Positions 6,100-64,000 of a stretch of DNA of 64,000 nt are shown here, piece by piece. The translations under genes and the position numbers were made by a program. Every line of letters begins with the position of its first letter. Positions within the stretch are counted from its first letter, which is position 1. This DNA is from Haematococcus lacustris (Eukaryota > Chlorophyta > Chlorophyceae > Chlamydomonadales > Haematococcaceae), in contig JASKMD010000003.1 of the NCBI GenBank assembly GCA_030144725.1, forward strand, positions 62,001 through 126,000. Direction: 5' to 3'. Below the pieces are notes generated by a model. The model did not search any database and was not told where the DNA came from. It saw only the letters and a list, made by a program, of their open reading frames with translations.

Positions 6100-6312
6100 A
6101 GTGAAGGCGGGGAGGGGAGGTAGATGTGGAAGGCGGGAGGTGGGAGGCAGGGAGGCGGGAGACGGGGAGGCGGGAGGCAGGGAGGCGGGAGGTGGGGAGG
6201 CGGGAGGCTCAACCGGGTTGGGCTGGGCGGGGGTGGGTTGGGTTGGGGGCATGGGTTGGGGTGGGTGGGGGCATGGGTGGGGGGCATGGGTTGGGGTGGG
6301 TGGGGGCATGGG
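6100..6312. repeat. GGGAGGC and GGGTTGGG-type G-rich repeats
   Basis: Imperfect repeats of GGGAGGCGGGAGGC, then of GGCATGGGTTGGGGTGGGTG, lead into the hexanucleotide array. Confidence 0.8.
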
Positions 6313-6893
6313 TGGGGGCGGGGGCGGGGGCGGGGGCGGGGGCGGGGGTGGGGGCGGGGGCGGGGGCGGGGGCGGGGGCGGGGGCGGGGGCGGGGGCGGG
6401 GGCGGGGGCGGGGGCGGGGGCGGGGGCGGGGGCGGGGGCGGGGGCGGGGGCGGGGGCGGGGGCGGGGGCGGGGGCGGGGGCGGGGGCGGGGGTGGGGGCG
6501 GGGGCGGGGGTGGGGGCGGGGGAGGGAGCGGGGGCGGGGGCGGGGGCGGGGGCGGGGGCGGGGGCGGGGGCGGGGGCGGGGGCGGGGGCGGGGGCGGGGG
6601 CGGGGGCGGGGGCGGGGGCGGGGGCGGGGGCGGGGGCGGGGGCGGGGGCGGGGGCGGGGGCGGGGGCGGGGGCGGGGGCGGGGGCGGGGGCGGGGGCGGG
6701 GGCGGGGGCGGGGGCGGGGGCGGGGGCGGGGGCGGGGGCGGGGGCGGGGGCGGGGGCGGGGGCGGGGGCGGGGGCGGGGGCGGGGGCGGGGGCGGGGGCG
6801 GGGGCGGGGGCGGGGGCGGGGGCGGGGGCGGGGGTGGGGGCGGGGGCGGGGGCGGGAGCGGGGGCGGGGGCGGGGACGGGGCCGGGGGCGGGG
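6313..6893. repeat. (GGGGGC)n hexanucleotide array, about 97 units
   Basis: Nearly pure GGGGGC on the plus strand, with scattered single T or A substitutions (for example near 6348, 6492, 6510 and 6523-6530). The plus strand should be able to form G-quadruplexes. All six frames are open for long distances simply because the unit is 6 bp. Confidence 0.98.
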
Positions 6894-7510
6894 GAGGATG
6901 AATTGGGAGGGGGTGGTTGTGTAGGGGAAAGGGAAGTGGAAGGGAGGTGCCCACTAGACCTGCAACCAAGGGGCGTGCACGTGCGGTAGGGTGACCAGGC
7001 TGGGCACTGTGTTAGCTATCACCGTGGCCTTACCTTTGTGGTCCTCCTGGCCTCCTACCTGCTCACACCAGGCAACATATCCCATGCGCCAGTGGGTGGG
7101 ACTGCGGTGGGGAGTGTAGGGTGTAGAGAAGGGAAGGTGGGGTGAGGTGGGGGTTGCGATGCCACGTCAATCGAAGGATGGGAGAGGGGAAGAGGAGGCT
7201 TGACAAGTATGGGAGGGGAAAGGGAGGTAGAGGGGGAAGGGAGGGGTGGGAAGAGGAAGGGGAGGTCCATGGGGAGGGCGAGAGAAGTGGGGAGGGCATT
7301 GATAGTCTCAGGTGTAGGCGCACAAGACCGGCGACAATGGTGTGACGATTTGTGTAACGAAGCAAACATTGGACATGGGTACTGGATGCACTCACCATTA
7401 GAGTAGGGAGATGTAGAGCTGGCAGATGGAGGGGCAGGTGTAGCAGCCCTCCATTACAACCCACCTTCCTTTGTCCTCACCTCAGTAGGAAGTGCAGGGT
7501 GGGAGAGTAG
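6894..7510. other. G-rich intergenic sequence
   Basis: Irregular GGGGAAGGGAGG-type sequence with no recognisable gene. Pro/Ser/Leu-rich frames on the minus strand follow base composition. Confidence 0.5.
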
Positions 7511-7970
7511 GGTTGGGTTGGGTTGGGTTGGGTTGGGTTGGGCTGGGCTGGGCTGGGCTGGGCTGGGCTGGGCTGGGCTGGGCTGGGCTGGGCTGGGCTG
7601 GGCTGGGCTGGGCTGGGCTGGGCTGGGCTGGGCTGGGCTGGGCTGGGCTGGGCTGGGCTGGGCTGGGCTGGGCTGGGCTGGGCTGGGCTGGGCTGGGCTG
7701 GGTTGGGCTGGGCTGGGCTGGGCTGGGCTGGGCTGGGCTGGGCTGGGCTGGGCTGGGCTGGGCTGGGCTGGGCTGGGCTGGGCTGGGCTGGGCTGGGCTG
7801 GGCTGGGCTGGGCTGGGCTGGGCTGGGCTGGGCTGGGCTGGGCTGGGCTGGGCTGGGCTGGGCTGGGCTGGGCTGGGCTGGGCTGGGCTGGGCTGGGCTG
7901 GGCTGGGCTGGGCTGGGCTGGGCTGGGCTGGGCTGGGCTGGGCTGGGCTGGGCTGGGCTGGGCTGGGCTG
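7511..7970. repeat. (GGTTG)6 followed by (GGCTG) about 87 pentamer array
   Basis: The array starts as GGTTG (7511-7540) and changes abruptly to GGCTG up to 7970, with one GGTTG unit embedded near 7701. It is otherwise homogeneous. Confidence 0.98.
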
Positions 7971-22303: not shown

Positions 22304-24691
22304 ATGCAGACATTTACAATGAACACGACAAACTCGTCGGTGGCATCTGGTGCCAGGCGCAGTGCGACCACGTCCAGGGCAAATCTCCCTGTGCTGAGCT
22401 GCAGCGCCTCACCTCCCGGCATGAGTCATGTCATCAGCCGGCCTTCGGGGTTTCTTGGCAAGAAGCTAGTCATCGCCTCGCCAGCTGCCGTGCGAACTTC
22501 TCGTTCACAAACTAGGAGCCGCGCTGTCGCCGTGACAGTGCAGGCTAACCTTTTTGACCGTTTCTTTCGAGTAATTGCGGTAGGGGGGGGCTCCGCGCTG
22601 CTGTGCTAGCCGGTAGTGCTCGCCGGTATGTTGCATCGTCGTTCACCTCGTTCCGCCACTACCCGTGCAGGCATACATCAACCAATCAGTGGGCAGTTTT
22701 GAGGTCAGTGGGTGCAGCAAGTTGCGAACGGGGCCACCTGTCTGCTCAGCCTTCAGCCTGGCACCTACCTGCTGGTGTGGCTTTTGTGAGGTGTAGGACC
22801 CTGAGAAGCTGCTGGACAGACTGGTGGAGGAGATGACGCAGGACTCCATGCGCATGCGCCAGGTGTGAGGCTGGTGATGGTGTTTGTTGTGGCAGGGATG
22901 GTGCGGGGCAGCAGAGGCAGCCACGACATGAGCTGCCGAGTCCGGCTCCTTTGCTGGCTGATGTGCTTTCCTAGAGCATACTGCAGCCCTTCAGCCATAG
23001 CTGCCGGTTACACCACTACCATTGCCAGCTGCCATGCTAAGCATGCTGTGCTGTGCGTTGATGTGTATTTCCTTGGTCTGCTGCTTTTGCAGCCTGGCAG
23101 TGCACCCTGCTGGCTGTGCCTGTTGCCTGCCTGTGCAGGCCAGCGCCCAGGCAACTGCTTCTCAGCGTCAGATGGCGGCGCGCACTGCCAACGCCCAGGC
23201 TGTCGCAGACCAGTGGCTGCGGCGCGCAGAGCTGGCGGTAGCAAGGGGGCAGGATGATCTGGCTAGGGAAGCGCTGACACGGCGCAAGGCGCTGCAGGCC
23301 GAAGCAGGTGTGAAGAGAGCAGGGGCGGTGCTGGGCCAGGCCTTGACTTGAAAGCAATGTGCCTAGCAGTTCTGCAGCCATGATAGCACAGCAGGCATGG
23401 GAGGCTGGCAGGCAAACGCGTTGCACTGGTGCTATACTTGGGTGGTTTGTCCACTGTTGCAGTGCAAACCCACGGCCTACTGCCCATACAATTGGTGCAA
23501 TGTCCTGCAGCGACTGCTGGCCTAGCAGTGTGGGTAGAGGATGAGTCATGGCTGCTGCAAACAGCTTGTGTGCCGTGCTGGCTGCAGATAAGCTGGAGAT
23601 GCAGGCCAAGGCACAGCAGCAGGCTTGCGATCAGCTCAGCGCAAGTGTGCGCATGCTTGAAGGTGTGAAGAATGTAAACATGAGGGTGGTGTGATATTTG
23701 CCGACCAGCATTGCTGTAGCCCACAGCAACAGAGCTGCTTATCGCCCTTGTCAGTGACTGTGCCTCACAACTTCAGTGTGTGCTGCTACAGGCAAGATTA
23801 GTGAGGCACGAAGCAAGAAGGAGACGCTGAAGGCCCGGGCAGCCAGTGCTAAGACCAGTATTGCTATCCAGGAGATGATTGGCAGCCTGCGCTCCACATC
23901 CTCCTCCTCCTTTGCTGTGTTTGACAAGATGGAGGAGAAGGTGGGCATGCCAGCAGCAGCAGCAGCAGCAGCAGCAGTAGCAGTGGCAGGAGCAGGACCA
24001 GCTCATTCACAAAATAGGGGCTGGGGTGGCTTTGTGCAGTGGCTGGTTGCTATCTGGAGCTGGCTGGATTGGATTTGTCATCGTTGAATTGAAGCTGGTG
24101 CTATGGCTTTCTGCCTGCTGCGCTGCCTGCGTCTTTGTCTGCAGGTGATGGCTCTGGAGGCGGAGGCGCAGAGTGCTACTGCTCTGGCCACCCCTGATGC
24201 CCTGGAGGCTCGCTTTGCCATGGTGGGCTACTTGGCCGGGCTATACACACACCCCTTCAAGCTGTCCAGCGCATTGCAGCATGCCCTGTGCACCCACACC
24301 TTCTTGATGCTTTGGGCCCTGCATGGCACTTGTGTGAACCAGCACTGAGGTGCTGGCCTGCTGTGGGGGTGCAGTTGGAAGGTGGCAACAGCGTGGAGGA
24401 GGAGCTGCGGGTACTAAAGTCAGGTGAGGCGGTAGGCACAGCAGGGGCCAAGTTAGTGTAGGGTGCCACCCCTTTGGGCCATGACCTTTGGGCCATGACC
24501 TTTGGGCCATGACCTGACCTTGCCCTGCCTTGCCTGCCTGACCTGGTGGGTGTGCAGGACGGCCTCAAGAAGCGCTGCCTCGGCCCCGTGTAGAGGACTA
24601 CATTAGCCAGCGGCCCTCAGGCGTGGCTGCTGCCACCCGGGACGCCGTGGAGTATGAGCTGGAGCAGCTGCGCCGCCAAGTCAGGTCTTGA
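22304..24691 (+). CDS. VIPP1: VIPP1 (IM30/PspA family) plastid membrane protein
   Basis: ESCRT-III-like membrane-remodelling protein, needed in chloroplasts for thylakoid biogenesis and envelope protection. Nine exons join in phase: 22304-22579, 22671-22703, 22797-22862, 23139-23307, 23588-23662, 23792-23940, 24145-24222, 24375-24423 and 24558-24691; 342 residues. Residues 1-81 are Ser/Ala/Arg-rich, as in a chloroplast transit peptide. The amphipathic helix starts at about residue 82 ([16 protein letters not shown]), followed by [19 protein letters not shown], then [38 protein letters not shown] and [14 protein letters not shown], all VIPP1 landmarks. The C-terminus (EELRVLKSG, then an extension ending [11 protein letters not shown]) replaces the short Ser/Thr tail of plant VIPP1 with a Pro/Arg linker and another helix. 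Intron 6 carries a CAG run and the last intron three 15-bp TTTGGGCCATGACC-type repeats. Confidence 0.95.
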
Positions 24692-28549: not shown

Positions 28550-29390
28550 AGCGGGGCGGGGGCGGGGGCGGGGGCGGGGGCGGGGGCGGGGGCGGGGGCG
28601 GGGGCGGGGGCGGGGGCGGGGGCGGGGGCGGGGGCGGGGGCGGGGGCGGGGGCGGGGGCGGGGGCGGGGGCGGGGGCGGGGGCGGGGGCGGGGGCGGGGG
28701 CGGGGGCGGGGGCGGGGGCGGGGGCGGGGGCGGGGGCGGGGGCGGGGGCGGGGGCGGGGGCGGGGGCGGGGGCGGGGGCGGGGGCGGGGGCGGGGGCGGG
28801 GGCGGGGGCGGGGGCGGGGGCGGGGGCGGGGGCGGGGGCGGGGGCGGGGGCGGGGGCGGGGGCGGGGGCGGGGGCGGGGGCGGGGGCGGGGGCGGGGGCG
28901 GGGGCGGGGGCGGGGGCGGGGGCGGGGGCGGGGGCGGGGGCGGGGGCGGGGGCGGGGGCGGGGGCGGGGGCGGGGGCGGGGGCGGGGGCGGGGGCGGGGG
29001 CGGGGGCGGGGGCGGGGGCGGGGGCGGGGGCGGGGGCGGGGGCGGGGGCGGGGGCGGGGGCGGGGGCGGGGGCGGGGGCGGGGGCGGGGGCGGGGGCGGG
29101 GGCGGGGGCGGGGGCGGGGGCGGGGGCGGGGGCGGGGGCGGGGGCGGGGGCGGGGGCGGGGGCGGGGGCGGGGGCGGGGGCGGGGGCGGGGGCGGGGGCG
29201 GGGGCGGGGGCGGGGGCGGGGGCGGGGGCGGGGGCGGGGGCGGGGGCGGGGGCGGGGGCGGGGGCGGGGGCGGGGGCGGGGGCGGGGGCGGGGGCGGGGG
29301 CGGGGGCGGGGGCGGGGGCGGGGGCGGGGGCGGGGGCGGGGGCGGGGGCGGGGGCGGGGGCGGGGGCGGGGGCGGGGGCGGGGGCGGGGA
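28550..29390. repeat. Uninterrupted (GGGGGC)n array, about 139 units
   Basis: From about 28556 to 29386 the hexamer GGGGGC repeats with no substitution that I can find, on the same strand as the array at 6313-6893. It ends in GGGGAGG variants and a poly-G run (about 29409-29425). It sits about 715 bp upstream of the LEA-like gene start. Confidence 0.98.
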
Positions 29391-29429
29391 GGGGGAGGGG
29401 GGGAGGCGGGGGGGGGGGGGGGGGGTAAA

Positions 29430-45013: not shown

Positions 45014-45020
45014 GTCGCGT
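45014..45020 (+). repeat. Left 7-bp target-site duplication GTCGCGT
   Basis: GTCGCGT directly abuts the left end of the foldback element and recurs at its right end (49928-49934). Confidence 0.85.
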
Positions 45021-45334
45021 CAGTTAGGTCTCCCGGTTACACATGGCACGTTTTTGGGTAACTTGAAGAAGACGAAAAAGGGAAACATGTCCCAAGTGAG
45101 CCCCGTCTGTTCCGCGTAGCCCAGCTAGCCATCGCACAGTTGAAGCGGGCTCGCAGCGGCGATTCCGGTGCCGGCCAGGCAGGTGAGCCAGTCTGCTTGG
45201 GCGCACGTCAACGTTAGGCTTATTGCGTAGCTGTTAGCTCTGCGCACGCCAAGCTGGGCCACTTAGTGCAATCGCCGCACAGCCAAGCAGCGGTTGCGGC
45301 AGGCGGTTACAAATGGCTTGCACGCTGCAGGTGC

Positions 45335-45524
45335 AATGTCCGAAAGCGCTAGCTCCGTTATCAGAGGCCGAACCACAGCCAGCGGGGCGCCAGTTTGCCC
45401 AGGAATAGACACGCCAGCACCCAGGACTGGACGGAGACGTAGTGACCAGTCTCCACCGCGCGCGAGAACCCCGACGCAGCGTACCACTAAGCAGAAGGCA
45501 GACGAGCAACAGCCTGACCACTGA
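45335..45524 (+). CDS. Short frame in the left arm, mirrored in the right arm
   Basis: A 62-codon frame (MSESASSVIRGRTTASG, ending KQKADEQQPDH) follows a TGCAG acceptor-like site and stops at 45524. The same frame exists inverted at 49613-49424 with one Ala-to-Val change. Basic, low-complexity, unknown. It may be a leftover of an ancestral element protein or non-coding. Confidence 0.2.
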
Positions 45525-46205
45525 CATTGCAGGGACATGGACAGGCTGTAGTGCATGAGCAACAGAAGCAGCAGCACGCTGTAGTGCACGAGCAGCAGTG
45601 CATGGGCAGCAACAGCAGCAGCAGGCTGTAGGTGTGTGGCAGTGCAGGCTGCAAGTGTTCTGCAGTGCATGAGCAGCAACAGCAGCAGGCTGTAGTGCAC
45701 GAGCAGCAGCAATAGCAGGCTGTGGTGCACGAGCAGCAATGCATGGGCAGCAGCAGGCTATAGGTGTGTGGCAGTGCATGCTGCAAGTAGCAGCAGGCTG
45801 CAGGTGTGTTGCAGTGCATGAGCAGCAGCAATAGGCTGCCTAGCATGTGTTGCAGTGCAGCCCCTCCCCTCCCTGCCCAGCCCTGCCCCACCCCCTCCCA
45901 GCCCTGCCCCACCCATCCCAGCCCGGCCCCACCCCCTCCCAGCCTTGCGTTGCCCCTCCCTCCCTTCCCAGCCCTTCCCCACCCCATCCCAGCCTGGCCC
46001 CACCCCCTCCCAGCCTTGCGTTGCCCCTCCCCTCCCTGCCTAGCCCTGCCCCACCCCCTCCCAGCCTTGCGTTGCCCATCCCCTCCCTGCCCAGCCCTGC
46101 CCCACCCCGTCCCAGCCTGGCCCCACCCCCTCCCAGCCCTGCCCCACCCCCTCCCAGCCCTGCCCCACCCCTCCCAGCCCGGCCCCACCCCCTCCAGCCT
46201 TGCGT

Positions 46206-46800
46206 TGTAGTGCATGAGCAGCAGCAGCAGGCTGCAGTGCATGAACAACAACAGCAGCAGGTTGCAGGTAGCAGCAGGCTGCAATGCATGTGCTACAGTG
46301 CATGAGCAGCAGCAGCAGGCTGCAATGCAGGCTGCAGGTAGCAGCAGGCTGCAGTGCATGTGCTGTAGTGCGTGAGCAGCAGCAGCAGGCTGCAGGTAGC
46401 AGCAGGCTGCAGTGCATGTGCTGTAGTGCGTGACCAGCAGAAACAGGCTGTAGTGCGTGAGCAGCAGCAGCATGCTGCAGTGCGTGAGGAGCAGCAGCAG
46501 GCTGCATTACAGGCTGCAGGTAGCAGCAGGCTGCTGTGCATGAGGAACAGCAGCAACAGCAGGCCGGAGTGCATAAGCAAGTGCACGAGCAAGTGCACGA
46601 GCAAGTAGCAGCAGGCTACGAATGTGTTGCAGTGCAAGTGTGTTGCAGTGCATGAGCAGCAGCAGCAGGCTGCAGTGCAGGTAGCAGCAGGTTGTAGTGC
46701 ATGTGTTGCAGTGCATGAGCAGCAGCAGGCTTTAGGTGTGGAAGTGTAGGCTGCAGATTGCATGTGTGTTGTAGTGCATGAGCAGCAGCAGGTTGCTTAA
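46206..46800. repeat. GCAGTGCATGAGCAGCAGC repeats inside the foldback loop
   Basis: Irregular repeats of TGCAGTGCATGAGCAGCAGC and GGCTGCAGGTAGCAGCAGG. Inverted relatives lie at about 47850-48010 and 48380-48480, so the loop contains smaller inverted repeats of its own. Confidence 0.85.
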
Positions 46801-47212
46801 GTTGTAGGGCAGCTCTAGCAACCATATTGAAGTTTCAATTCGTGGTAGGCATCATGTAAGAGATGTAAGAACGACGTCATGCCCTCACATTAGTGACAAA
46901 GAACAACGAGAACGAGCAGTCTCCTACTATAACTCCATCCTCCTTCTATAACTCCATACATGGTAGTGCATGAGCAGTAGCACAATGCTTCGTCAATCAA
47001 CAAGACCTGCCATCAACTAATCAACCAAGCCTGAAGACATGACCTTCTAAGAAGAATGTTGCATGGTACAAAAGCTATTACAAAGGTTGTCCTGAGCTTC
47101 CATTCAGTTCCATGCCACACAACGTGAATTGTAAGCTGTGAATGGTCAAGATGTAATGAAGAAAACGGTGGTGGTCATTAGCCGTGTATCCTCTTCTCAA
47201 ATGATACCTACG

Positions 47213-47567
47213 CCCCTTGTATGGACAACACCACCACGCGGTGATGCGCTAATGCTGCAAACGTGGTAGCCACCTGCTACATACCCCCTTTGCATGTATG
47301 CATCACGGTCATGCTTAGCAAGTGCAGGCTTGGCAGTGATCCACACCCAATGTGTCACAGCTAGCTGGACTACGGATGGTACCTACAGTGGAGGTTCACC
47401 AGATCCAGCCACATGCTAGGGTGTGGTGCGCCACATGCCCCTTGTATGGACAACACCACCACGCGGTGATGCGCAAATGCTGCAAACGTGGTAGCCACCT
47501 GCTACATACCCCCTTTGCATGTATGCATCACGGCCATGCTTAGCAAGTGCAGGCCTGGCAGTGATCC
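47213..47567. repeat. Direct repeat of about 130 bp, 225 bp apart
   Basis: The sequence starting CCCCTTGTATGGACAACACC at 47213 recurs at 47438 with only about three substitutions, through GGCAGTGATCC. It lies in the unique centre of the foldback element. Confidence 0.9.
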
Positions 47568-49927
47568 GCACCAAATCCAACCATATGGCACCACGCGGTA
47601 TTACATCGACGCTGCAACTGGCACGGTCAAGGACGCTAGGTCTATTGTAGACCTTGATATTCGAGTTGCAATTGCCCATCACCGGGGAAGCCGTCTTACA
47701 CAACCAATGTGGTTTCCATATGCGGCTACACAAGCAATGGCATGGTTGAGAAACCTCAAATTGCATGGAGCTACCAAGACCACCGCAGACCATGCCAGAT
47801 CTATGCCATAGAATGAGCTTGCATGCAATCAGACACATACCGCACATGTTGCTGTCCTTGCACTGCTGGTCACGCATTACAGCCTGTTGCTGCTGCTTCC
47901 CATTCACTGCTGCTCATGCACTACAGCCTGCTGCTGCTGCTGCTCATGCACTGCAACACATGCACTGCAGCCTGCAGCTGCTGCTCATGCACTCCTGCTG
48001 CTACCTGCAGCCTGCACTGCCACACACCTACAGGCAGGGCAGGGCAGGGCAAGGTAGGGCAGGGCTGGGCAGGGCAGGGCAAGGTAGGGCAGGGCTGGGC
48101 AGGGAAGGGCAGGGTAGGGCAGGCAAGGGAGGGGCAACGCAAGGCTGGGAGGGGGTGGGGCAGGGCTGGGATGGGGTGGGGCAGGGCTGGGCAGGGCTGG
48201 GATGGGGTGGGGCAGGGCTGGGCAGGGCTGGGAGGGGCAACGCAAGGCTGGGAGGGGGTGGGGAAGGGCTGGGAGGGGGTGGGGAAGGGCTGGGAGGGGG
48301 TGGGGCAGGGCTGGACAGGGAGGGGCAATGCAAGGCTGGGAGGGGGTGGGGCCGGGCTGGGAGGGCTGGGAGGGGCCCTCACGCACTGCAGCCTGCTGCT
48401 GCTGCTCCTCACGCACTGCAGCCTGCTGCTGCTGCTAATGCACTGCAGTACATGCACCGCAGCCTCCTGTTGCTGCTCACGCACTGGGCAGGGCAGAGGT
48501 CAATGCAGGTGGCTGCTGCTGCTGCTGCTGCAGCCTTGGGCTAGTAAGGAGGGCGGAGGACAAGGTATGGGGCAGCTGCTGCTGTTGCTGCAGCCCTAGG
48601 CTGGTGAACAGGTCAGAGGGCAGGGGAGGGGGTGGTTGCATTGGTGCTTTCTTATACATTGTTCAGGCAGTTTGGTGCTTGGTGCTTATCAGCCTGTGAC
48701 ACATGGGTGGGGCAGGGCTGGAAGGGGGTGGGGCAGAGCTGGGCAGGGAGGGGCACGCAAGGCTGGGAGGGGGTGGGGCAGGGCTAGGCAGGGAGGGGAG
48801 GGGCAACACAAGGCTGGGAGGGGGTGGGGCAGGGCTGGGAGGGGGTGGGGCCAGGCTGGGAAGGGGTGGGGCAGGGCTGGGCAGGGAGGGGATGGGCAAC
48901 GCAAGGCTGGGAGGGGGTGGGGCAGGGCTAGGCAGGGAGGGGGTGGGGCCAGGCTGGGATGGGGTGGGGCAAGGCTGGGCAGGGAGGGGCAACGCAAGGC
49001 TGGGAGGGGGTGGGGCCGGGCTGGGATGGGTGGGGCAGGGCTGGGAGGGGGTGGGGCAGGGCTGGGCAGGGAGGGGAGGGGCTGCACCGCAACACATGCT
49101 AGGCAGCCTATTGCTGCTGCTCATGCACTGCAACACACCTGCAGCCTGCTGCTACTTGCAGCATGCACTGCCACACACCTATAGCCTGCTGCTGCCCATG
49201 CATTGCTGCTCGTGCACCACAGCCTGCTATTGCTGCTGCTCGTGCACTACAGCCTGCTGCTGTTGCTGCTCATGCACTGCAGAACACTTGCAGCCTGCAC
49301 TGCCACACACCTACAGCCTGCTGCTGCTGTTGCTGCTGCTGCCCATGCACTGCTGCTCGTGCACTACAGCGTGCTGCTGCTTCTGTTGCTCATGCACTAC
49401 AGCCTGTCCATGTCCCTGCAATGTCAGTGGTCAGGCTGTTGCTCGTCTGCCTTCTGCTTAGTGGTACGCTGCGTCGGGGTTCTCGCGCGCGGTGGAGACT
49501 GGTCACTACGTCTCCGTCCAGTCCTGGGTGCTGGCGTGTCTATTCCTGGGCAAACTGGCGCCCCGCTGACTGTGGTTCGGCCTCTGATAACGGAGCTAGC
49601 GCTTTCGGACATTGCACCTGCAGCGTGCAAGCCATTTGTAACCGCCTGCCGCAACCGCTGCTTGGCTGTGCGGCGATTGCACTAAGTGGCCCAGCTTGGC
49701 GTGCGCAGAGCTAACAGCTACGCAATGGGCCTAACGTTGACGTGCGCCCAAGCAGACTGGCTCACCTGCCTGGCCGGCACCGGAATCGCCGCTGTGAGCC
49801 CGCTTCAACTGTGCAATGGCTAGCTGGGCTACGCGGAACTGACGGGGCTCACTTGGGACATGTTTCCCTTTTTCGTCTTCTTCAAGTTACCCAAAAACGT
49901 GCCATGTGTAACCGGGAGACCTAACTG

Positions 49928-49934
49928 GTCGCGT
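49928..49934 (+). repeat. Right 7-bp target-site duplication GTCGCGT
   Basis: Matches 45014-45020 exactly and directly abuts the right end of the foldback element. Confidence 0.85.
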
Positions 49935-52157: not shown

Positions 52158-53882
52158 TCAGCGGTCCAGCACCTGGGCGTCGAGGTAGGCCTGCGTCACG
52201 TCCCAGCCCGGCTGCAGCCAGCCAGGGCTCCACACCAGGGGGTAGGTCACGTAGCCAGGGGTGGGCGCGAAGGAGGCGGCGTAGATGGCGTGGTATCTGC
52301 AGGGTGTCGGCACCCTGTGATGACTAGAGGGGTCAGGGCAATGGTACTGTACTGAATCAGGTCATTAGTACTGAGTCCTTCGGGGATCACCTAGGGGTCA
52401 AGCATTGCCTGCCAGCTCCAGCATTGTGTGTATTTTTTAGGGGTGGCTGTCACAACTCAAAACAGGGCTGGAGTCAGGCAGGGGCGCTGCAGCCTAGACC
52501 AGCAGCCTCATAGCCCACAACCTCATAGCCCCCCCGGCCCACTGGAGCAAGGCAGGGGGGTGGGGGGACAATGAGGCAGGGAAGCCGGGAGGGTCTGGGT
52601 CAAGCCCAGCGGCAGCATGGGCCATTGTGAGCAGTGTGCTTGTGAGGGTGTGGTGACTGGGGTCAGAGGCAGGCACTCACTTGTCCCAGGGGATCTGCTG
52701 CTTGGCTGGGTTGGGGAAGAACCTGCAGCAGCAGGACCAACAGGTGCAGTGCTGCAATGCCGCAGGGGCAGCCAGATTCATGCGCTGCGCTGACTGCCGC
52801 CCCTGCCCCCTACGCCCCTCTTCCACCCCCCTACCAGCATGCCTGCTGTCTCCCTGCCCTCCCCTGCCCTCCCCTGCCCCACCCCCGCACCCTGCTGTCC
52901 CCTACCAGGTGCGGTTCAGGCCCTGAGGGTTGTACTCAGCTGCCCCCATGAAGGACCACGCATCGTCATCCCACACCTCTACCCTGCAGGGGCAGGGGCA
53001 GGGGCAGGGGCAGGGGCAGGGGCAGGGGCAGGGGCAGGGGCAGGGGCAGGGGCAGGGGCAGGGGCAGGGGCAGGGGCTGAGGAGCTGGAACACAAGTGGC
53101 ATGAGGGGCAGGGACAGAGACAGGGATAGGAGGACAAGGGCAGGGTGAGGCAGCAAGGCGGGGGGGCTGCTGGCCCCTCATCCTACCATGTGAGGAGCGG
53201 CAGCCCTCCTCCAGCCTTCCCACCCTTTGCACCTGCCTTTCCATGCCCGCAGCCCTGCCCTTCCTCCCTAGGCACCTACCAGTTGTGGTTGTTGAAGTCA
53301 TGGCCCACGTCCGTACCTAGCGCCGCAAGCTGGGCTGGGCCTTCCTGACCCCCAGCCCCAGCCCTGGCCCCCACCAGCAGCTTCCTGGCAGCTGCTGACC
53401 CCCTCCCGCCAACCAGGTGGACATCTGGGCCCCGACTAGGTAGGGTAGCCGCCCATTCAGGGGTGCCTGTGCAGTCCAGGCCGGGCAGCATGAGGTGGCA
53501 GTAGGGGTGGGGGGTCCAGTGTGCATGCAGTGAACTTGACGACCCAGCCAGGCCAAACACTAACCATGACCTCATGGCTCCACAGGCCTGCCCCCACAAC
53601 TGCCCTCCTGTTGAAGCCTTGTTCCCTTGAGCCTGGTTGGGGCTGCTTGAGCCTGGCAGCTTAGCAGCATGCTTACAGCCTGACATTGTGCCCTGCTCTG
53701 CACCTGCCCAGCCCCACCCCCCTGCCCTGCCCTGCTCACCTGCAACTCGAGCGGGGATGCCCACCGCCCTACACGCCGCCACTAGGATGATTGACAGCCC
53801 AGTGCACGAGGCGTAGCCCGCCGCAATGACCTGGGCCGGACTCATAATGTCAGGGGTTTGGTCAGCCTTGAACCGGATGCCC
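52158..53882 (-). CDS. Transglutaminase-like domain protein, 5' part missing
   Basis: Papain-fold transglutaminase-like protein; such enzymes act on amide bonds, but the substrate of this branch is unknown. Five minus-strand exons join in phase: 53882-53740, 53316-53280, 52983-52906, 52722-52681 and 52296-52158. All three catalytic residues are visible: Cys in AAGYASCTGLSIILVAACRA, His in GHDFNNHNWVEVW and Asp in VWDDDAWSFMGAAEYNPQGL. The C-terminus runs FFPNPAKQQIPWDKYHAIYA to YLDAQVLDR and the stop at 52158-52160. Exon 53882-53740 starts at a CTGCAG acceptor inside a codon, so upstream exons exist. The satellite starts about 95 bp further upstream, so those exons lie beyond the window or were lost. 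Confidence 0.88.
52986..53077. repeat. (GGGGCA)n hexanucleotide tract
   Basis: About 15 units of GGGGCA in the transglutaminase intron directly beside an acceptor site. Confidence 0.95.
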
Positions 53883-53975
53883 CTGCAGTGCCAGCGACAT
53901 CATCGCAGTGCAAAAAGCAGCAGCCCCCCACCCCCAGCCCCCCAGACCCTGACCTCGCCCTCCCGCCCTCCCGCC

Positions 53976-56900
53976 CTCCCTACAGCAGCACCAGCTGCCC
54001 CTCTCTCCCACACGGCCACCAGCCCTCCCTACAGCAGCACCAGCCGCCCCTCTCTCCCACACGGCCACCAGCCCTCCCTACAGCAGCACCAGCTGCCCCT
54101 CTCTCCCACACGGCCACCAGCCCTCCCTACAGCAGCACCAGCTGCCCCTCTCTCCCACACGGCCACCAGCCCTCCCTACAGCAGCACCAGCTGCCCCTCT
54201 TTCCCACACGGCCACCAGGCCTCCCTACAGCAGCACCAGCTGCCCCTCTCTCCCACACGGCCACCAGCCCTCCCTACAGCAGCACCAGCTGCCCCTCTCT
54301 CCCACACGGCCACCAGCCCTCCCTACAGCAGCACCAGCTGCCCCTCTCTCCCACACGGCAACCAGCCCTCCCTACAGCAGCACCAGCTGCCCCTCTCTCC
54401 CACACAGCCACCAGCCCTCCCTACAGCAGCACCAGCTGCCCCTCTCTCCCACACGGCCACCAGCCCTCCCTACAGCAGCACCAGCTGCCCCTCTCTCCCA
54501 CACGGCCACCAGCCCTCCCTACAGCAGCACCAGCTGCCCCTCTCTCCCACACGGCCACCAGCCCTCCCTACAGCAGCACCAGCTGCCCCTCTCTCCCACA
54601 CGGCCACCAGCCCTCCCTACAGCAGCACCAGCTGCCCCTCTCTCCCACACGGCCACCAGCCCTCCCTACAGCAGCACCAGCTGCCCCTCTCTCCCACACG
54701 GCCACCAGCCCTCCCTACAGCAGCACCAGCTGCCCCTCTTTCCCACACGGCCACCAGGCCTCCCTACAGCAGCACCAGCTGCCCCTCTCTCCCACACGGC
54801 CACCAGCCCTCCCTACAGCAGCACCAGCTGCCCCTCTCTCCCACACGGCAACCAGCCCTCCCTACAGCAGCACCAGCTGCCCCTCTCTCCCACACAGCCA
54901 CCAGCCCTCCCTACAGCAGCACCAGCTGCCCCTCTCTCCCACACGGCCACCAGCCCTCCCTACAGCAGCACCAGCTGCCCCTCTCTCCCACACGGCCACC
55001 AGCCCTCCCTAAAGCAGCACCAGCCGCCCCTCTCTCCCACACGGCCACCAGCCCTCCCTACAGCAGCACCAGCCGCCCCTCTCTCCCACACGGCCACCAG
55101 CCCTCCCTACAGCAGCACCAGCTGCCCCTCTCTCCCACACGGCCACCAGCCCTCCCTACAGCAGCACCAGCTGCCCCTCTCTCCCACACGGCCACCAGCC
55201 CTCCCTACAGCAGCACCAGCTGCCCCTCTCTCCCACACGGCCACCAGCCCTCCCTACAGCAGCACCAGCTGCCCCTCTCTCCCACACGGCCACCAGCCCT
55301 CCCTAAAGCAGCACCAGCCGCCCCTCTCTCCCACACGGCCACCAGCCCTCCCTACAGCAGCACCAGCTGCCCCTCTCTCCCACACGGCCACCAGCCCTCC
55401 CTACAGCAGCACCAGCCGCCCCTCTCTCCCACACGGCCACCAGCCCTCCCTACAGCAGCACCAGCTGCCCCTCTCTCCCACACGGCCACCAGCCCTCCCT
55501 ACAGCAGCACCAGCTGCCCCTCTCTCCCACACGGCCACCAGCCCTTCCTACAGCAGCACCAGCTGCCCCTCTCTCCCACACGGCCACCAGCCCTCCCTAC
55601 AGCAGCACCAGCTGCCCCTCTCTCCCACACGGCCACCAGCCCTCCCTACAGCAGCACCAGCCGCCCCTCTCTCCCACACGGCCACCAGCCCTCCCTACAG
55701 CAGCACCAGCCGCCCCTCTCTCCCACACGGCCACCAGCCCTCCCTACAGCAGCACCAGCCGCCCCTCTCTCCCACACGGCCACCAGCCCTCCCTACAGCA
55801 GCACCAGCTGCCCCTCTCTCCCACACGGCCACCAGCCCTCCCTACAGCAGCACCAGCTGCCCCTCTCTCCCACACGGCCACCAGCCCTCCCTACAGCAGC
55901 ACCAGCCGCCCCTCTCTCCCACACGGCCACCAGCCCTCCCTACAGCAGCACCAGCCGCCCCTCTCTCCCACACGGCCACCAGCCCTCCCTACAGCAGCAC
56001 CAGCTGCCCCTCTCTCCCACACGGCCACCAGCCCTCCCTACAGCAGCACCAGCCGCCCCTCTCTCCCACACGGCCACCAGCCCTCCCTACAGCAGCACCA
56101 GCTGCCCCTCTCTCCCACACGGCCACCAGCCCTCCCTACAGCAGCACCAGCTGCCCCTCTCTCCCACACGGCCACCAGCCCTTCCTACAGCAGCACCAGC
56201 TGCCCCTCTCTCCCACACGGCCACCAGCCCTCCCTACAGCAGCACCAGCTGCCCCTCTCTCCCACACGGCCACCAGCCCTCCCTACAGCAGCACCAGCCG
56301 CCCCTCTCTCCCACACGGCCACCAGCCCTCCCTACAGCAGCACCAGCCGCCCCTCTCTCCCACACGGCCACCAGCCCTCCCTACAGCAGCACCAGCCGCC
56401 CCTCTCTCCCACACGGCCACCAGCCCTCCCTACAGCAGCACCAGCTGCCCCTCTCTCCCACACGGCCACCAGCCCTCCCTACAGCAGCACCAGCTGCCCC
56501 TCTCTCCCACACGGCCACCAGCCCTCCCTACAGCAGCACCAGCCGCCCCTCTCTCCCACACGGCCACCAGCCCTCCCTACAGCAGCACCAGCCGCCCCTC
56601 TCTCCCACACGGCCACCTGCCCTCCCTACAGCAGCACCAGCTGCCCCTCTCTCCCACACGGCCACCAGCCCTCCCTACAGCAGCACCAGCCGCCCCTCTC
56701 TCCCACACGGCCACCAGCCCTCCCTACAGCAGCACCAGCTGCCCCTCTCTCCCACACGGCCACCAGCCCTCCCTAAAGCAGCACCAGCCGGCCCTCTCTC
56801 CCACACGGCCACCAGCCCTCCCTAAAGCAGCACCAGCCGGCCCTCTCTCCCACACGGCCACCAGCCCTCCCTAAAGCAGCACCAGCTGCCCCTCTCTCCC

Positions 56901-59900
56901 ACACGGCCACCAGCCCTCCCTACAGCAGCACCAGCTGCCCCTCTCTCCCACACGGCCACCAGCCCTCCCTACAGCAGCACCAGCCGCCCCTCTCTCCCAC
57001 ACAGCCACCAGCCCTCCCTAAAGCAGCACCAGCCGCCCCTCTCTCCCACACGGCCACCAGCCCTCCCTACAGCAGCACCAGCCGCCCCTCTCTCCCACAC
57101 GGCCACCAGCCCTCCCTACAGCAGCACCAGCTGCCCCTCTCTCCCACACGGCCACCAGCCCTCCCTACAGCAGCACCAGCTGCCCCTCTCTCCCACACGG
57201 CTACCAGCCCTCCCTACAGCAGCACCAGCTGCCCCTCTCTCCCACACGGCCACCAGCCCTCCCTACAGCAGCACCAGCTGCCCCTCTCTCCCACACGGCC
57301 ACCAGCCCTCCCTACAGCAGCACCAGCTGCCCCTCTCTCCCACACGGCCACCAGCCCTCCCTACAGCAGCACCAGCTGCCCCTCTCTCCCACACGGCCAC
57401 CAGCCCTCCCTACAGCAGCACCAGCTGCCCCTCTCTCCCACACGGCCACCAGCCCTCCCTACAGCAGCACCAGCTGCCCCTCTCTCCCACACGGCCACCA
57501 GCCCTCCCTACAGCAGCACCAGCCGCCCCTCTCTCCCACACGGCCACCTGCCCTCCCTACAGCAGCACCAGCTGCCCCTCTCTCCCACACGGCCACCAGC
57601 CCTCCCTACAGCAGCACCAGCTGCCCCTCTCTCCCACACGGCCACCAGCCCTCCCTACAGCAGCACCAGCTGCCCCTCTCTCCCACACGGCCACCAGCCC
57701 TCCCTACAGCAGCACCAGCTGCCCCTCTCTCCCACACGGCCACCAGCCCTCCCTACAGCAGCACCAGCTGCCCCTCTCTCCCACACGGCCACCAGCCCTC
57801 CCTACAGCAGCACCAGCCGCCCCTCTCTCCCACACGGCCACCAGCCCTCCCTACAGCAGCACCAGCTGCCCCTCTCTCCCACACGGCCACCAGCCCTCCC
57901 TACAGCAGCACCAGCTGCCCCTCTCTCCCACACGGCCACCAGCCCTCCCTACAGCAGCACCAGCCGCCCCTCTCTCCCACACGGCCACCTGCCCTCCCTA
58001 CAGCAGCACCAGCTGCCCCTCTCTCCCACACGGCCACCAGCCCTCCCTACAGCAGCACCAGCTGCCCCTCTCTCCCACACGGCCACCAGCCCTCCCTACA
58101 GCAGCACCAGCTGCCCCTCTCTCCCACACGGCCACCAGCCCTCCCTACAGCAGCACCAGCTGCCCCTCTCTCCCACACGGCCACCAGCCCTCCCTACAGC
58201 AGCACCAGCCGCCCCTCTCTCCCACACGGCCACCAGCCCTCCCTACAGCAGCACCAGCTGCCCCTCTCTCCCACACGGCCACCAGCCCTCCCTACAGCAG
58301 CACCAGCCGCCCCTCTCTCCCACACGGCCACCAGCCCTCCCTACAGCAGCACCAGCTGCCCCTCTCTCCCACACGGCCACCAGCCCTCCCTACAGCAGCA
58401 CCAGCTGCCCCTCTCTCCCACACGGCCACCAGCCCTCCCTACAGCAGCACCAGCTGCCCCTCTCTCCCACACGGCCACCAGCCCTCCCTACAGCAGCACC
58501 AGCTGCCCCTCTCTCCCACACGGCCACCAGCCCTCCCTACAGCAGCACCAGCTGCCCCTCTCTCCCACACGGCCACCAGCCCTCCCTACAGCAGCACCAG
58601 CTGCCCCTCTCTCCCACACGGCCACCAGCCCTCCCTACAGCAGCACCAGCTGCCCCTCTCTCCCACACGGCCACCAGCCCTCCCTACAGCAGCACCAGCT
58701 GCCCCTCTCTCCCACACGGCCACCAGCCCTCCCTACAGCAGCACCAGCTGCCCCTCTCTCCCACACGGCCACCAGCCCTCCCTACAGCAGCACCAGCTGC
58801 CCCTCTCTCCCACACGGCCACCAGCCCTCCCTACAGCAGCACCAGCTGCCCCTCTCTCCCACACGGCCACCAGCCCTCCCTACAGCAGCACCAGCTGCCC
58901 CTCTCTCCCACACGGCCACCAGCCCTCCCTACAGCAGCACCAGCCGCCCCTCTCTCCCACACGGCCACCAGCCCTCCCTACAGCAGCACCAGCTGCCCCT
59001 CTCTCCCACACGGCCACCAGCCCTCCCTACAGCAGCACCAGCTGCCCCTCTCTCCCACACGGCCACCAGCCCTCCCTACAGCAGCACCAGCCGCCCCTCT
59101 CTCCCACACGGCCACCAGCCCTCCCTACAGCAGCACCAGCTGCCCCTCTCTCCCACACGGCCACCAGCCCTCCCTACAGCAGCACCAGCTGCCCCTCTCT
59201 CCCACACGGCCACCAGCCCTCCCTACAGCAGCACCAGCTGCCCCTCTCTCCCACACGGCCACCAGCCCTCCCTACAGCAGCACCAGCTGCCCCTCTCTCC
59301 CACACGGCCACCAGCCCTCCCTACAGCAGCACCAGCCGCCCCTCTCTCCCACACGGCCACCAGCCCTCCCTACAGCAGCACCAGCTGCCCCTCTCTCCCA
59401 CACGGCCACCAGCCCTCCCTACAGCAGCACCAGCTGCCCCTCTCTCCCACACGGCCACCAGCCCTCCCTACAGCAGCACCAGCTGCCCCTCTCTCCCACA
59501 CGGCCACCAGCCCTCCCTACAGCAGCACCAGCTGCCCCTCTCTCCCACACGGCCACCAGCCCTCCCTACAGCAGCACCAGCTGCCCCTCTCTCCCACACG
59601 GCCACCAGCCCTCCCTACAGCAGCACCAGCTGCCCCTCTCTCCCACACGGCCACCAGCCCTCCCTACAGCAGCACCAGCTGCCCCTCTCTCCCACACGGC
59701 CACCAGCCCTCCCTACAGCAGCACCAGCTGCCCCTCTCTCCCACACGGCCACCAGCCCTCCCTACAGCAGCACCAGCTGCCCCTCTCTCCCACACGGCCA
59801 CCAGCCCTCCCTACAGCAGCACCAGCTGCCCCTCTCTCCCACACGGCCACCAGCCCTCCCTACAGCAGCACCAGCTGCCCCTCTCTCCCACACGGCCACC

Positions 59901-62900
59901 AGCCCTCCCTACAGCAGCACCAGCTGCCCCTCTCTCCCACACGGCCACCAGCCCTCCCTACAGCAGCACCAGCTGCCCCTCTCTCCCACACGGCCACCAG
60001 CCCTCCCTACAGCAGCACCAGCCGCCCCTCTCTCCCACACGGCCACCAGCCCTCCCTACAGCAGCACCAGCTGCCCCTCTCTCCCACACGGCCACCAGCC
60101 CTCCCTACAGCAGCACCAGCTGCCCCTCTCTCCCACACGGCCACCAGCCCTCCCTACAGCAGCACCAGCTGCCCCTCTCTCCCACACGGCCACCAGCCCT
60201 CCCTACAGCAGCACCAGCCGCCCCTCTCTCCCACACGGCCACCTGCCCTCCCTACAGCAGCACCAGCTGCCCCTCTCTCCCACACGGCCACCAGCCCTCC
60301 CTACAGCAGCACCAGCTGCCCCTCTCTCCCACACGGCCACCAGCCCTCCCTACAGCAGCACCAGCTGCCCCTCTCTCCCACACGGCCACCAGCCCTCCCT
60401 ACAGCAGCACCAGCTGCCCCTCTCTCCCACACGGCCACCAGCCCTCCCTACAGCAGCACCAGCTGCCCCTCTCTCCCACACGGCCACCAGCCCTCCCTAC
60501 AGCAGCACCAGCTGCCCCTCTCTCCCACACGGCCACCAGCCCTCCCTACAGCAGCACCAGCTGCCCCTCTCTCCCACACGGCCACCAGCCCTCCCTACAG
60601 CAGCACCAGCTGCCCCTCTCTCCCACACGGCCACCAGCCCTCCCTACAGCAGCACCAGCTGCCCCTCTCTCCCACACGGCCACCAGCCCTCCCTACAGCA
60701 GCACCAGCTGCCCCTCTCTCCCACACGGCCACCAGCCCTCCCTACAGCAGCACCAGCTGCCCCTCTCTCCCACACGGCCACCAGCCCTCCCTACAGCAGC
60801 ACCAGCTGCCCCTCTCTCCCACACGGCCACCAGCCCTCCCTACAGCAGCACCAGCCGCCCCTCTCTCCCACACGGCCACCAGCCCTCCCTACAGCAGCAC
60901 CAGCTGCCCCTCTCTCCCACACGGCCACCAGCCCTCCCTACAGCAGCACCAGCTGCCCCTCTCTCCCACACGGCCACCAGCCCTCCCTACAGCAGCACCA
61001 GCCGCCCCTCTCTCCCACACGGCCACCAGCCCTCCCTACAGCAGCACCAGCTGCCCCTCTCTCCCACACGGCCACCAGCCCTCCCTACAGCAGCACCAGC
61101 TGCCCCTCTCTCCCACACGGCCACCAGCCCTCCCTACAGCAGCACCAGCTGCCCCTCTCTCCCACACGGCCACCAGCCCTCCCTACAGCAGCACCAGCTG
61201 CCCCTCTCTCCCACACGGCCACCAGCCCTCCCTACAGCAGCACCAGCCGCCCCTCTCTCCCACACGGCCACCTGCCCTCCCTACAGCAGCACCAGCTGCC
61301 CCTCTCTCCCACACGGCCACCAGCCCTCCCTACAGCAGCACCAGCTGCCCCTCTCTCCCACACGGCCACCAGCCCTCCCTACAGCAGCACCAGCTGCCCC
61401 TCTCTCCCACACGGCCACCAGCCCTCCCTACAGCAGCACCAGCTGCCCCTCTCTCCCACACGGCCACCAGCCCTCCCTACAGCAGCACCAGCCGCCCCTC
61501 TCTCCCACACGGCCACCTGCCCTCCCTACAGCAGCACCAGCTGCCCCTCTCTCCCACACGGCCACCAGCCCTCCCTACAGCAGCACCAGCTGCCCCTCTC
61601 TCCCACACGGCCACCAGCCCTCCCTACAGCAGCACCAGCTGCCCCTCTCTCCCACACGGCCACCAGCCCTCCCTACAGCAGCACCAGCCGCCCCTCTCTC
61701 CCACACGGCCACCTGCCCTCCCTACAGCAGCACCAGCTGCCCCTCTCTCCCACACGGCCACCAGCCCTCCCTACAGCAGCACCAGCTGCCCCTCTCTCCC
61801 ACACGGCCACCAGCCCTCCCTACAGCAGCACCAGCTGCCCCTCTCTCCCACACGGCCACCAGCCCTCCCTACAGCAGCACCAGCCGCCCCTCTCTCCCAC
61901 ACGGCCACCTGCCCTCCCTACAGCAGCACCAGCTGCCCCTCTCTCCCACACGGCCACCAGCCCTCCCTACAGCAGCACCAGCTGCCCCTCTCTCCCACAC
62001 GGCCACCAGCCCTCCCTACAGCAGCACCAGCTGCCCCTCTCTCCCACACGGCCACCAGCCCTCCCTACAGCAGCACCAGCCGCCCCTCTCTCCCACACGG
62101 CCACCAGCCCTCCCTACAGCAGCACCAGCTGCCCCTCTCTCCCACACGGCCACCAGCCCTCCCTACAGCAGCACCAGCTGCCCCTCTCTCCCACACGGCC
62201 ACCAGCCCTCCCTACAGCAGCACCAGCTGCCCCTCTCTCCCACACGGCCACCAGCCCTCCCTACAGCAGCACCAGCTGCCCCTCTCTCCCACACGGCCAC
62301 CAGCCCTCCCTAAAGCAGCACCAGCTGCCCCTCTCTCCCACACGGCCACCAGCCCTCCCTACAGCAGCACCAGCTGCCCCTCTCTCCCACACGGCCACCA
62401 GCCCTCCCTACAGCAGCACCAGCTGCCCCTCTCTCCCACACGGCAACCAGCCCTCCCTACAGCAGCACCAGCTGCCCCTCTCTCCCACACGGCCACCAGC
62501 CCTCCCTACAGCAGCACCAGCCGCCCCTCTCTCCCACACGGCCACCAGCCCTCCCTACAGCAGCACCAGCTGCCCCTCTCTCCCACACGGCCACCAGCCC
62601 TCCCTACAGCAGCACCAGCTGCCCCTCTCTCCCACACGGCCACCAGCCCTCCCTACAGCAGCACCAGCCGCCCCTCTCTCCCACACGGCCACCTGCCCTC
62701 CCTACAGCAGCACCAGCTGCCCCTCTCTCCCACACGGCCACCAGCCCTCCCTACAGCAGCACCAGCTGCCCCTCTCTCCCACACGGCCACCAGCCCTCCC
62801 TACAGCAGCACCAGCTGCCCCTCTCTCCCACACGGCCACCAGCCCTCCCTACAGCAGCACCAGCTGCCCCTCTCTCCCACACGGCCACCAGCCCTCCCTA

Positions 62901-64000
62901 CAGCAGCACCAGCCGCCCCTCTCTCCCACACGGCCACCTGCCCTCCCTACAGCAGCACCAGCTGCCCCTCTCTCCCACACGGCCACCAGCCCTCCCTACA
63001 GCAGCACCAGCTGCCCCTCTCTCCCACACGGCCACCAGCCCTCCCTACAGCAGCACCAGCTGCCCCTCTCTCCCACACGGCCACCAGCCCTCCCTACAGC
63101 AGCACCAGCCGCCCCTCTCTCCCACACGGCCACCAGCCCTCCCTACAGCAGCACCAGCTGCCCCTCTCTCCCACACGGCCACCAGCCCTCCCTACAGCAG
63201 CACCAGCTGCCCCTCTCTCCCACACGGCCACCAGCCCTCCCTACAGCAGCACCAGCTGCCCCTCTCTCCCACACGGCCACCAGCCCTCCCTACAGCAGCA
63301 CCAGCTGCCCCTCTCTCCCACACGGCCACCAGCCCTCCCTACAGCAGCACCAGCTGCCCCTCTCTCCCACACGGCCACCAGCCCTCCCTACAGCAGCACC
63401 AGCTGCCCCTCTCTCCCACACGGCCACCAGCCCTCCCTACAGCAGCACCAGCTGCCCCTCTCTCCCACACGGCCACCAGCCCTCCCTACAGCAGCACCAG
63501 CCGCCCCTCTCTCCCACACGGCCACCTGCCCTCCCTACAGCAGCACCAGCTGCCCCTCTCTCCCACACGGCCACCAGCCCTCCCTACAGCAGCACCAGCT
63601 GCCCCTCTCTCCCACACGGCCACCAGCCCTCCCTACAGCAGCACCAGCTGCCCCTCTCTCCCACACGGCCACCAGCCCTCCCTACAGCAGCACCAGCCGC
63701 CCCTCTCTCCCACACGGCCACCTGCCCTCCCTACAGCAGCACCAGCTGCCCCTCTCTCCCACACGGCCACCAGCCCTCCCTACAGCAGCACCAGCTGCCC
63801 CTCTCTCCCACACGGCCACCAGCCCTCCCTACAGCAGCACCAGCTGCCCCTCTCTCCCACACGGCCACCAGCCCTCCCTACAGCAGCACCAGCCGCCCCT
63901 CTCTCCCACACGGCCACCAGCCCTCCCTACAGCAGCACCAGCTGCCCCTCTCTCCCACACGGCCACCAGCCCTCCCTACAGCAGCACCAGCTGCCCCTCT
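53976..64000. repeat. 49-bp satellite, about 204 units, reaching the window end
   Basis: The unit begins CCCTCCCTACAGCAGCACC, continues AGCTGCCCCTCTCTCCCAC and ends ACGGCCACCAG. It repeats head to tail without a break. Common variants are CAGCCG for CAGCTG, CTAAAG for CTACAG and ACCTG for ACCAG. Rare variants occur in linked sets (for example 54201/54357/54401 and 54740/54847/54891), showing block duplications of about ten units. Since 49 is not a multiple of three, a 49-residue repeat arises over three units and long frames stay open; I do not consider them genes. Confidence 0.98.

Follow-up and report, generated by a model that had tools for sequence, protein, structure and literature searches.

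What kind of transposon gives rise to an element in which no transposase can be recognised, and which enzyme moves it? The question is raised by an inverted-repeat structure in the green alga Haematococcus lacustris, within a 64,000-nucleotide stretch (hereafter the window; positions 62,001 to 126,000 of contig JASKMD010000003.1, assembly GCA_030144725.1, C175:62001-126000 in our contig numbering), which we followed through the whole assembly (307,914,905 bases in 597 contigs). The structure, a 4,907-bp element at window positions 45021-49927, is very probably a non-autonomous foldback that derives from a DNA transposon of the KDZ type (Kyakuja-Dileera-Zisupton). We favor this reading because KDZ exons occur in two longer relatives whose ends are the same and because the arm of the element best matches the end of those relatives at which the transposase gene starts.

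The element and its boundaries

A preliminary description of the locus had proposed a foldback transposon with arms of about 1.2 kb, clean ends and a genuine 7-bp target duplication, and all three features were borne out. The element runs from CAGTTAGG to CCTAACTG and is bounded directly on both sides by an exact GTCGCGT. When window bases 1-53900 were scanned for perfect 12-nucleotide inverted pairs with a spacing below 10 kb, this was the sole pair among 5,597 with identical 7-bp outer flanks. BLAST pairs the arms (45021-46179 against 49927-48761) at 94.8% identity over about 1.16 kb. The arm alignment is gap-free over its first 505 bp (499 identical positions, 6 substitutions), has one substitution and a 6-bp indel (6 gap positions) beside 336 identities in the next 337 bp, and is looser in the C-rich part (287 identities, 7 substitutions, 39 gap positions). 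The loop holds diverged inverted copies of the minisatellite and of the C/G-rich arrays, plus a 1,045-bp middle; the smaller inverted repeats and C/G-rich arrays described earlier are indeed present, along with CAG/CTG minisatellites.

None of six open reading frames (ORFs; four within the element, two at its left flank) gave a Pfam match at an E-value of 1, and neither the middle ORF nor residues 101-201 of one arm ORF retrieved any homologue. Arm sequence likewise had no match in viral contigs (two arm patterns searched), prokaryote contigs (one arm pattern) or phages (arm DNA). In architecture the element is a foldback, with a middle domain that lacks transposase enclosed by long inverted arms that are internally repetitive. 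A repeated subterminal motif, CGGTTACANATGGC, was discarded as weak because such a pair arises in 23 of 300 simulations.

A large family with 7- and 8-bp target duplications

The foldback elements form a real, large family of many copies, in which the ends are fixed and the target duplications measure 7 or 8 bp. The terminal arm has at least 41 matches in the genome at 96-100% identity, many of them in inverted pairs, a count that is a lower bound as 40 of 242 first-look candidates were scored. The end motif CARTYARGTCTCCCGGT, with at most one mismatch, occurs at 518 forward and 517 reverse places in the whole genome, compared with 5 and 6 for the reversed control, which would correspond to roughly 500 elements provided that most of these ends are paired. 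In random genome stretches (60 kb with 500 N) no copy of the arm, of the middle or of a 49-bp satellite found elsewhere in the window was seen; the arrays were unmatched there, and the only matches were of 18-24 bp to the CTG-rich inner piece.

Both flanks were read in 36 single copies, made up of 16 arm-family members (the window copy included), one sister element and 19 end-motif pairs, the latter chosen by eye in list order with some pairs passed over. Exact direct duplications flank 28 of the 36, 21 of them 7 bp long and seven 8 bp, with none longer; one 7-bp case among the end-motif pairs is weak, lying inside an AGCCCT simple repeat. The other eight copies have inverted flanks (four, discussed below), abutting N runs (two) or neither (two). 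The preliminary description had proposed searching the genome for other arm copies with 7-bp duplications and had named copies without a flanking duplication as evidence that would count against it; the former were found, and the latter amount to these eight exceptions.

The sister foldback (C11:4075719-4080394) contains arrays of the same kinds together with a related middle; its arm-terminal domain is largely different, with about 17 terminal bases in common with the arm family. Arm-family copies also contain positions 1-242 and 347-1045 of the middle domain, and a segment from about 241 to 1045 is present in other copies, the sister among them. Kept outside the 36 were two double elements (C166:15028796-15037951 and C476:16780650-16785385), truncated ends on C373 and C30 that have the same flank, the two longer relatives described in the next section, and four places at which guessed partner ends were missed (C166:15103000, C2:5852000, C476:4445600 and C182:7523950).

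The double elements show arrangements of their own. The pair on C166 consists of two 4,575-bp elements in mirror orientation with GCCTCA between them; GCCTCAA stands at the left outer flank and likewise at the right, after one G, and the pair is either a double insertion or an inverted duplication at one target. A TTGAGGC target and its right flank are common to a single element at C312:5456784-5461353 and the two abutting elements on C476, which may reflect duplication of the region and an additional insertion.

Longer relatives and the KDZ transposase

Two longer relatives with CAGTTAGG ends, L069 (C22:2341698-2349470) and L070 (C2:7258052-7264732), both carry ORFs. When five ORF pieces of L070 were scanned against Pfam, one gave CxC3 (PF18804) over the cut-off (E 7.3e-7), one gave KDZ below it (E 2.9e-4, single-ORF scan), one gave a weak CtIP_N match (E 0.011, below the cut-off) that we take as chance, and two gave nothing. 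A search of the whole genome with the KDZ family (PF18758) yielded 76 matches, compared with none in any of 14 control genomes. Matches over the cut-off lie within both long relatives (C22:2347263-2347433 in L069, C2:7263020-7263190 in L070), and a third (C2:735502-735654) lies inside a pair of CAATCAGG ends at 733610-739255. The earlier statement that no transposase is recognisable therefore stands for the window copy, as far as tested, and fails for its two same-ended longer relatives, in which the KDZ transposase domain is found.

Other hallmarks of the superfamily agree. Its cysteine cluster (CxC) is present in L070 as CxC3, and the two duplication lengths in the Haematococcus family are those of Kyakuja (7 bp) and Zisupton (8 bp). 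In the available text of PMC12730594, two Laccaria Kyakuja families are given 7-bp duplications and 5'-CA..TG-3' ends, and Zisupton 8-bp duplications; both groups are already reported from Chlamydomonas and relatives in the part of PMC8226300 that was available. A KDZ transposase supplied by longer copies would recognise the shared terminus of about 17 bp and move the foldback by cut and paste.

The arms themselves point to where the foldback came from. Arm positions 1-553 match the right, transposase-start end of L070 at 87.9% and positions 1-338 match its left end at 89.9%; for L069 the corresponding values are 87.5% (right) and 91.0% (left). The arm also contains an 85-amino-acid ORF, 83 residues of which align (65 identities) with the initial portion of the ORF that continues into CxC3 in L070, and because of this homology the ends and the KDZ gene look like one unit. 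The simplest reading, judged from sequence comparison, is that an ancestral element received a copy of its right, transposase-start end at the left and lost its transposase gene, giving the foldback. For Galileo, a similar extension of arms by repair was proposed by its authors (PMC3573991, as far as its available text goes).

Several observations weigh against a KDZ origin. (i) On the contigs for which exact ends were listed (C1, C2, C11 and part of C22, mismatched ends falling outside this list), 3 of 13 KDZ matches were placed by eye inside shared-end pairs and 10 outside; the strongest matches (E about 1e-20) were within no listed pair. There are therefore other KDZ elements in the genome, or ends that we did not see. 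(ii) The KDZ matches in L069 and L070 are short pieces of a gene that no single frame reads through, and the two relatives may be neither intact nor active. (iii) Neither is flanked by an exact duplication: at the ends of L070 there is just CATGGC two bases out, and the right end of L069 abuts a piece of another arm. (iv) The Laccaria Kyakuja elements, as described in the available text, are without inverted repeats. (v) Mobilisation of the element has not been observed.

The first of these observations would fit a scenario in which chance capture or nesting brought the KDZ gene into the long relatives, while another enzyme moves the family. An enzyme such as that of hAT7 would be a candidate, as hAT7 elements likewise make 7-bp duplications (PMC12730594, available text). 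We consider this scenario unlikely: the arm shares homology with the opening stretch of the very ORF that runs into CxC3, and end pairs of two kinds, CAGTTAGG and CAATCAGG, enclose KDZ matches. Less probable still is a P-superfamily element of the Galileo type. The anatomy is a close match, with long, internally repetitive arms, 7- or 8-bp duplications and CA ends; against this, the long relatives bear KDZ and CxC3 domains, GTCGCGT and the other duplications, read by eye, are unlike the palindromic GTANTAC consensus, and the general Pfam scan of the five L070 pieces showed no P domain, which was not tested for directly.

The Mutator-like origin suggested in the preliminary description, whether as FB, Tm1, Tetris or a Mutator-like element (MULE), has a lower probability again. 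In PMC4079207 (available portion) most foldbacks are considered members of Mutator, and 8-bp duplications sit at the low edge of the range of Tm1 and Tetris. Such an origin is nevertheless unsupported because the two same-ended longer relatives carry KDZ exons over the cut-off. Duplications of 8-11 bp, mostly 9, would be expected of the Mutator/MULE group (8-10 bp for Tm1 and Tetris, 9-11 bp for MULEs; PMC3310237 for the latter, both from partial text), and three-quarters of those found here (21 of 28) are of 7 bp and seven of 28 are of 8 bp. No MULE domain appeared in the scan of the five L070 pieces; the genome as a whole was not searched with a MULE family.

Two further features of the long relatives were recorded. 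The left terminus of L069 is tandemly duplicated by 47 bp, and L070 carries a 466-amino-acid ORF (452-1849 of L070, + strand) opposite the KDZ gene, with no Pfam match.

Inverted host flanks

Four of the 36 copies (C64, C49, C11:7098526 and C11:1448091) have flanks that are inverted copies of each other and begin directly at the element. The two copies are identical at C64 (328/328) and C11:1448091 (532/532), differ once at C49 (504/505 identical), and at C11:7098526 match at 780 of 815 aligned sites, with 35 differences and 16 gap positions over about 820 bp. For three of the four loci (C64, C49 and C11:7098526) the left flanks were compared and do not match one another. On the right side of C64, the 328-bp inverted copy is followed by a T and then by CTTTTCGC, which equals the 8 bp closing the left flank. 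The original right duplication therefore seems to have been kept, with the inverted copy placed between duplication and element.

A plausible scenario is that the transposase now and then processes a single end, in a one-ended cut or join. The free 3' end would snap back onto the opposite arm and prime synthesis outward through the host flank; the extended end would then be joined to the other target end, leaving an inverted copy of the flank. The sizes at the four loci (328, 505, 532 and about 820 bp) are consistent with this scenario, and we infer it from one clear case because the other three loci either have no such duplication or have a weak 6-bp match. Duplications beyond the inverted copy were looked for at all four loci. 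The following weigh against snap-back: none was present at C49 or C11:7098526; at C11:1448091 a match of just 6 bp lies 5 bases out, and its 6-mer occurs five times in 2.1 kb; a second family end lies 618 bp out in the left flank of that locus; and the copied flank can be identified at C64 alone. A tentative proposal is accordingly that small palindromes of host sequence arise regularly when KDZ foldbacks undergo one-ended transposition faults, and our confidence in it stays on the low side because the direction of copying is known for C64 only. If it is correct, inverted flanks would preserve in the sequence a trace of one-ended transposition and show how foldbacks form palindromes.

The least probable explanation is that chimeric, folded reads made the inverted repeat or the inverted flanks during assembly, which the N runs directly at an end in 2 of 19 pairs and the near-perfect flank copies at C64, C49 and C11:1448091 might suggest, but which is contradicted by the asymmetric loop, the differing arms, the direct duplications at 28 of 36 copies and the 35 differences between the flank copies at C11:7098526.

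Probable conversion between arms

The similarity of the arms had led to the suggestion of a recent insertion or of conversion that is still under way. Within elements, the arms differ at 6, 1, 1 and 2 sites per 500 bp (four elements, the window copy being the one with 6), compared with 4-11 per 500 bp between elements (24 comparisons). The between-element range includes the window copy's own value, and this overlap of the two sets counts against conversion as the explanation. At C11:7098526, the terminal arms differ at one site in 500, and a longer alignment that takes in the minisatellite has 9 differences in 976 with 11 gap positions. Because the flank copies at this locus differ at 35 of 815 sites and its terminal arms at one in 500, the arms appear to have been levelled after the flank was copied. 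These figures suggest ongoing conversion, with arms that may continue to exchange sequence; the suggestion is best supported at C11:7098526 and is less clear for the window copy.

Feature coordinates and genome setting

Table 1. Parts of the foldback element and its target duplications, in window coordinates.
Feature	Position	Strand	Remark
Left target-site duplication GTCGCGT	45014-45020	.	Only one of its kind in the 12-nucleotide inverted-pair scan
Left arm, terminal domain	45021-45525	+	Opening 17 bp, CAGTTAGGTCTCCCGGT, agree with the end motif of the family
Arm ORF, 85 amino acids	45267-45521		Within left arm terminal domain
Left CAG-type minisatellite	45526-45862	+	
Left C-rich array, GC 0.77	45863-46206	+	BLAST arm mirror match stops at 46179
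Second CAG-type array, inner	46207-46800	+	Partial mirrors at 47846-48030 and 48377-48482
Middle domain, coding not detected	46801-47845	.	
Two 140-bp direct repeats, 96%	47212-47351, 47437-47576		In middle domain
Inner CTG array	47846-48030	-	
Inner G-rich array	48031-48376	-	
Inner CTG array and short stretch 48483-48704	48377-48704	-	
Right G-rich array	48705-49082	-	Mirrors 45863-46206
Right CTG minisatellite	49083-49424	-	
Right arm, terminal domain	49425-49927	-	Terminates in CCTAACTG
Right target-site duplication GTCGCGT	49928-49934	.	

To the right of the element, a transglutaminase-like ORF (53276-53896) has its closest proteins in Haematococcus lacustris, and protein P0001 is matched at 92-100% identity by exon pieces lying between 52161 and 53893. 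The exons of this gene adjoin the 49-bp satellite (53973-64000; about 205 copies, 98% match), which continues past the window end; the H. lacustris gene model P0002 includes a stretch that matches the translated satellite. Elsewhere in the window there are long, near-pure GGGCGG, GGGCT and GGGGCG arrays (6298-6894, 7510-7970 and 28553-29425), and an exon-like ORF (23758-24084) matches Vipp1/PspA structures.

Comparison with known systems

Neither a KDZ foldback nor this Haematococcus family appears in the titles or abstract openings among the literature matches listed, a search in which subscription journals were mostly uncovered. If the KDZ assignment is correct, KDZ joins the transposon lineages that have foldbacks, and the occurrence of transposase-less copies beside coding relatives in one genome makes the origin of the arms readable.

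The partial texts available for the published systems allow a comparison with three of them. The Tm1 and Tetris foldbacks, assigned to Mutator, also have tandem-repeat arms, and the Tetris middle domain is without coding capacity; they differ in their 8-10-bp duplications, and Tm1 has a different transposase. Galileo of Drosophila is closer in anatomy. It has 7-bp and rarely 8-bp duplications, tandem repeats inside arms that reach 1.26 kb (PMC4168063, PMC3573991), close to the 1.2 kb seen here, a terminus conserved across subfamilies, two-arm copies without transposase and a proposed exchange of arms by repair, but it belongs to another transposase superfamily, P, and its duplications follow a palindromic consensus. 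With the KDZ elements themselves, the Haematococcus family shares KDZ and CxC3 domains in its same-ended relatives, both duplication lengths and the CA..TG ends of Kyakuja, and it is set apart from them by long, minisatellite-bearing foldback arms and by copies without transposase.

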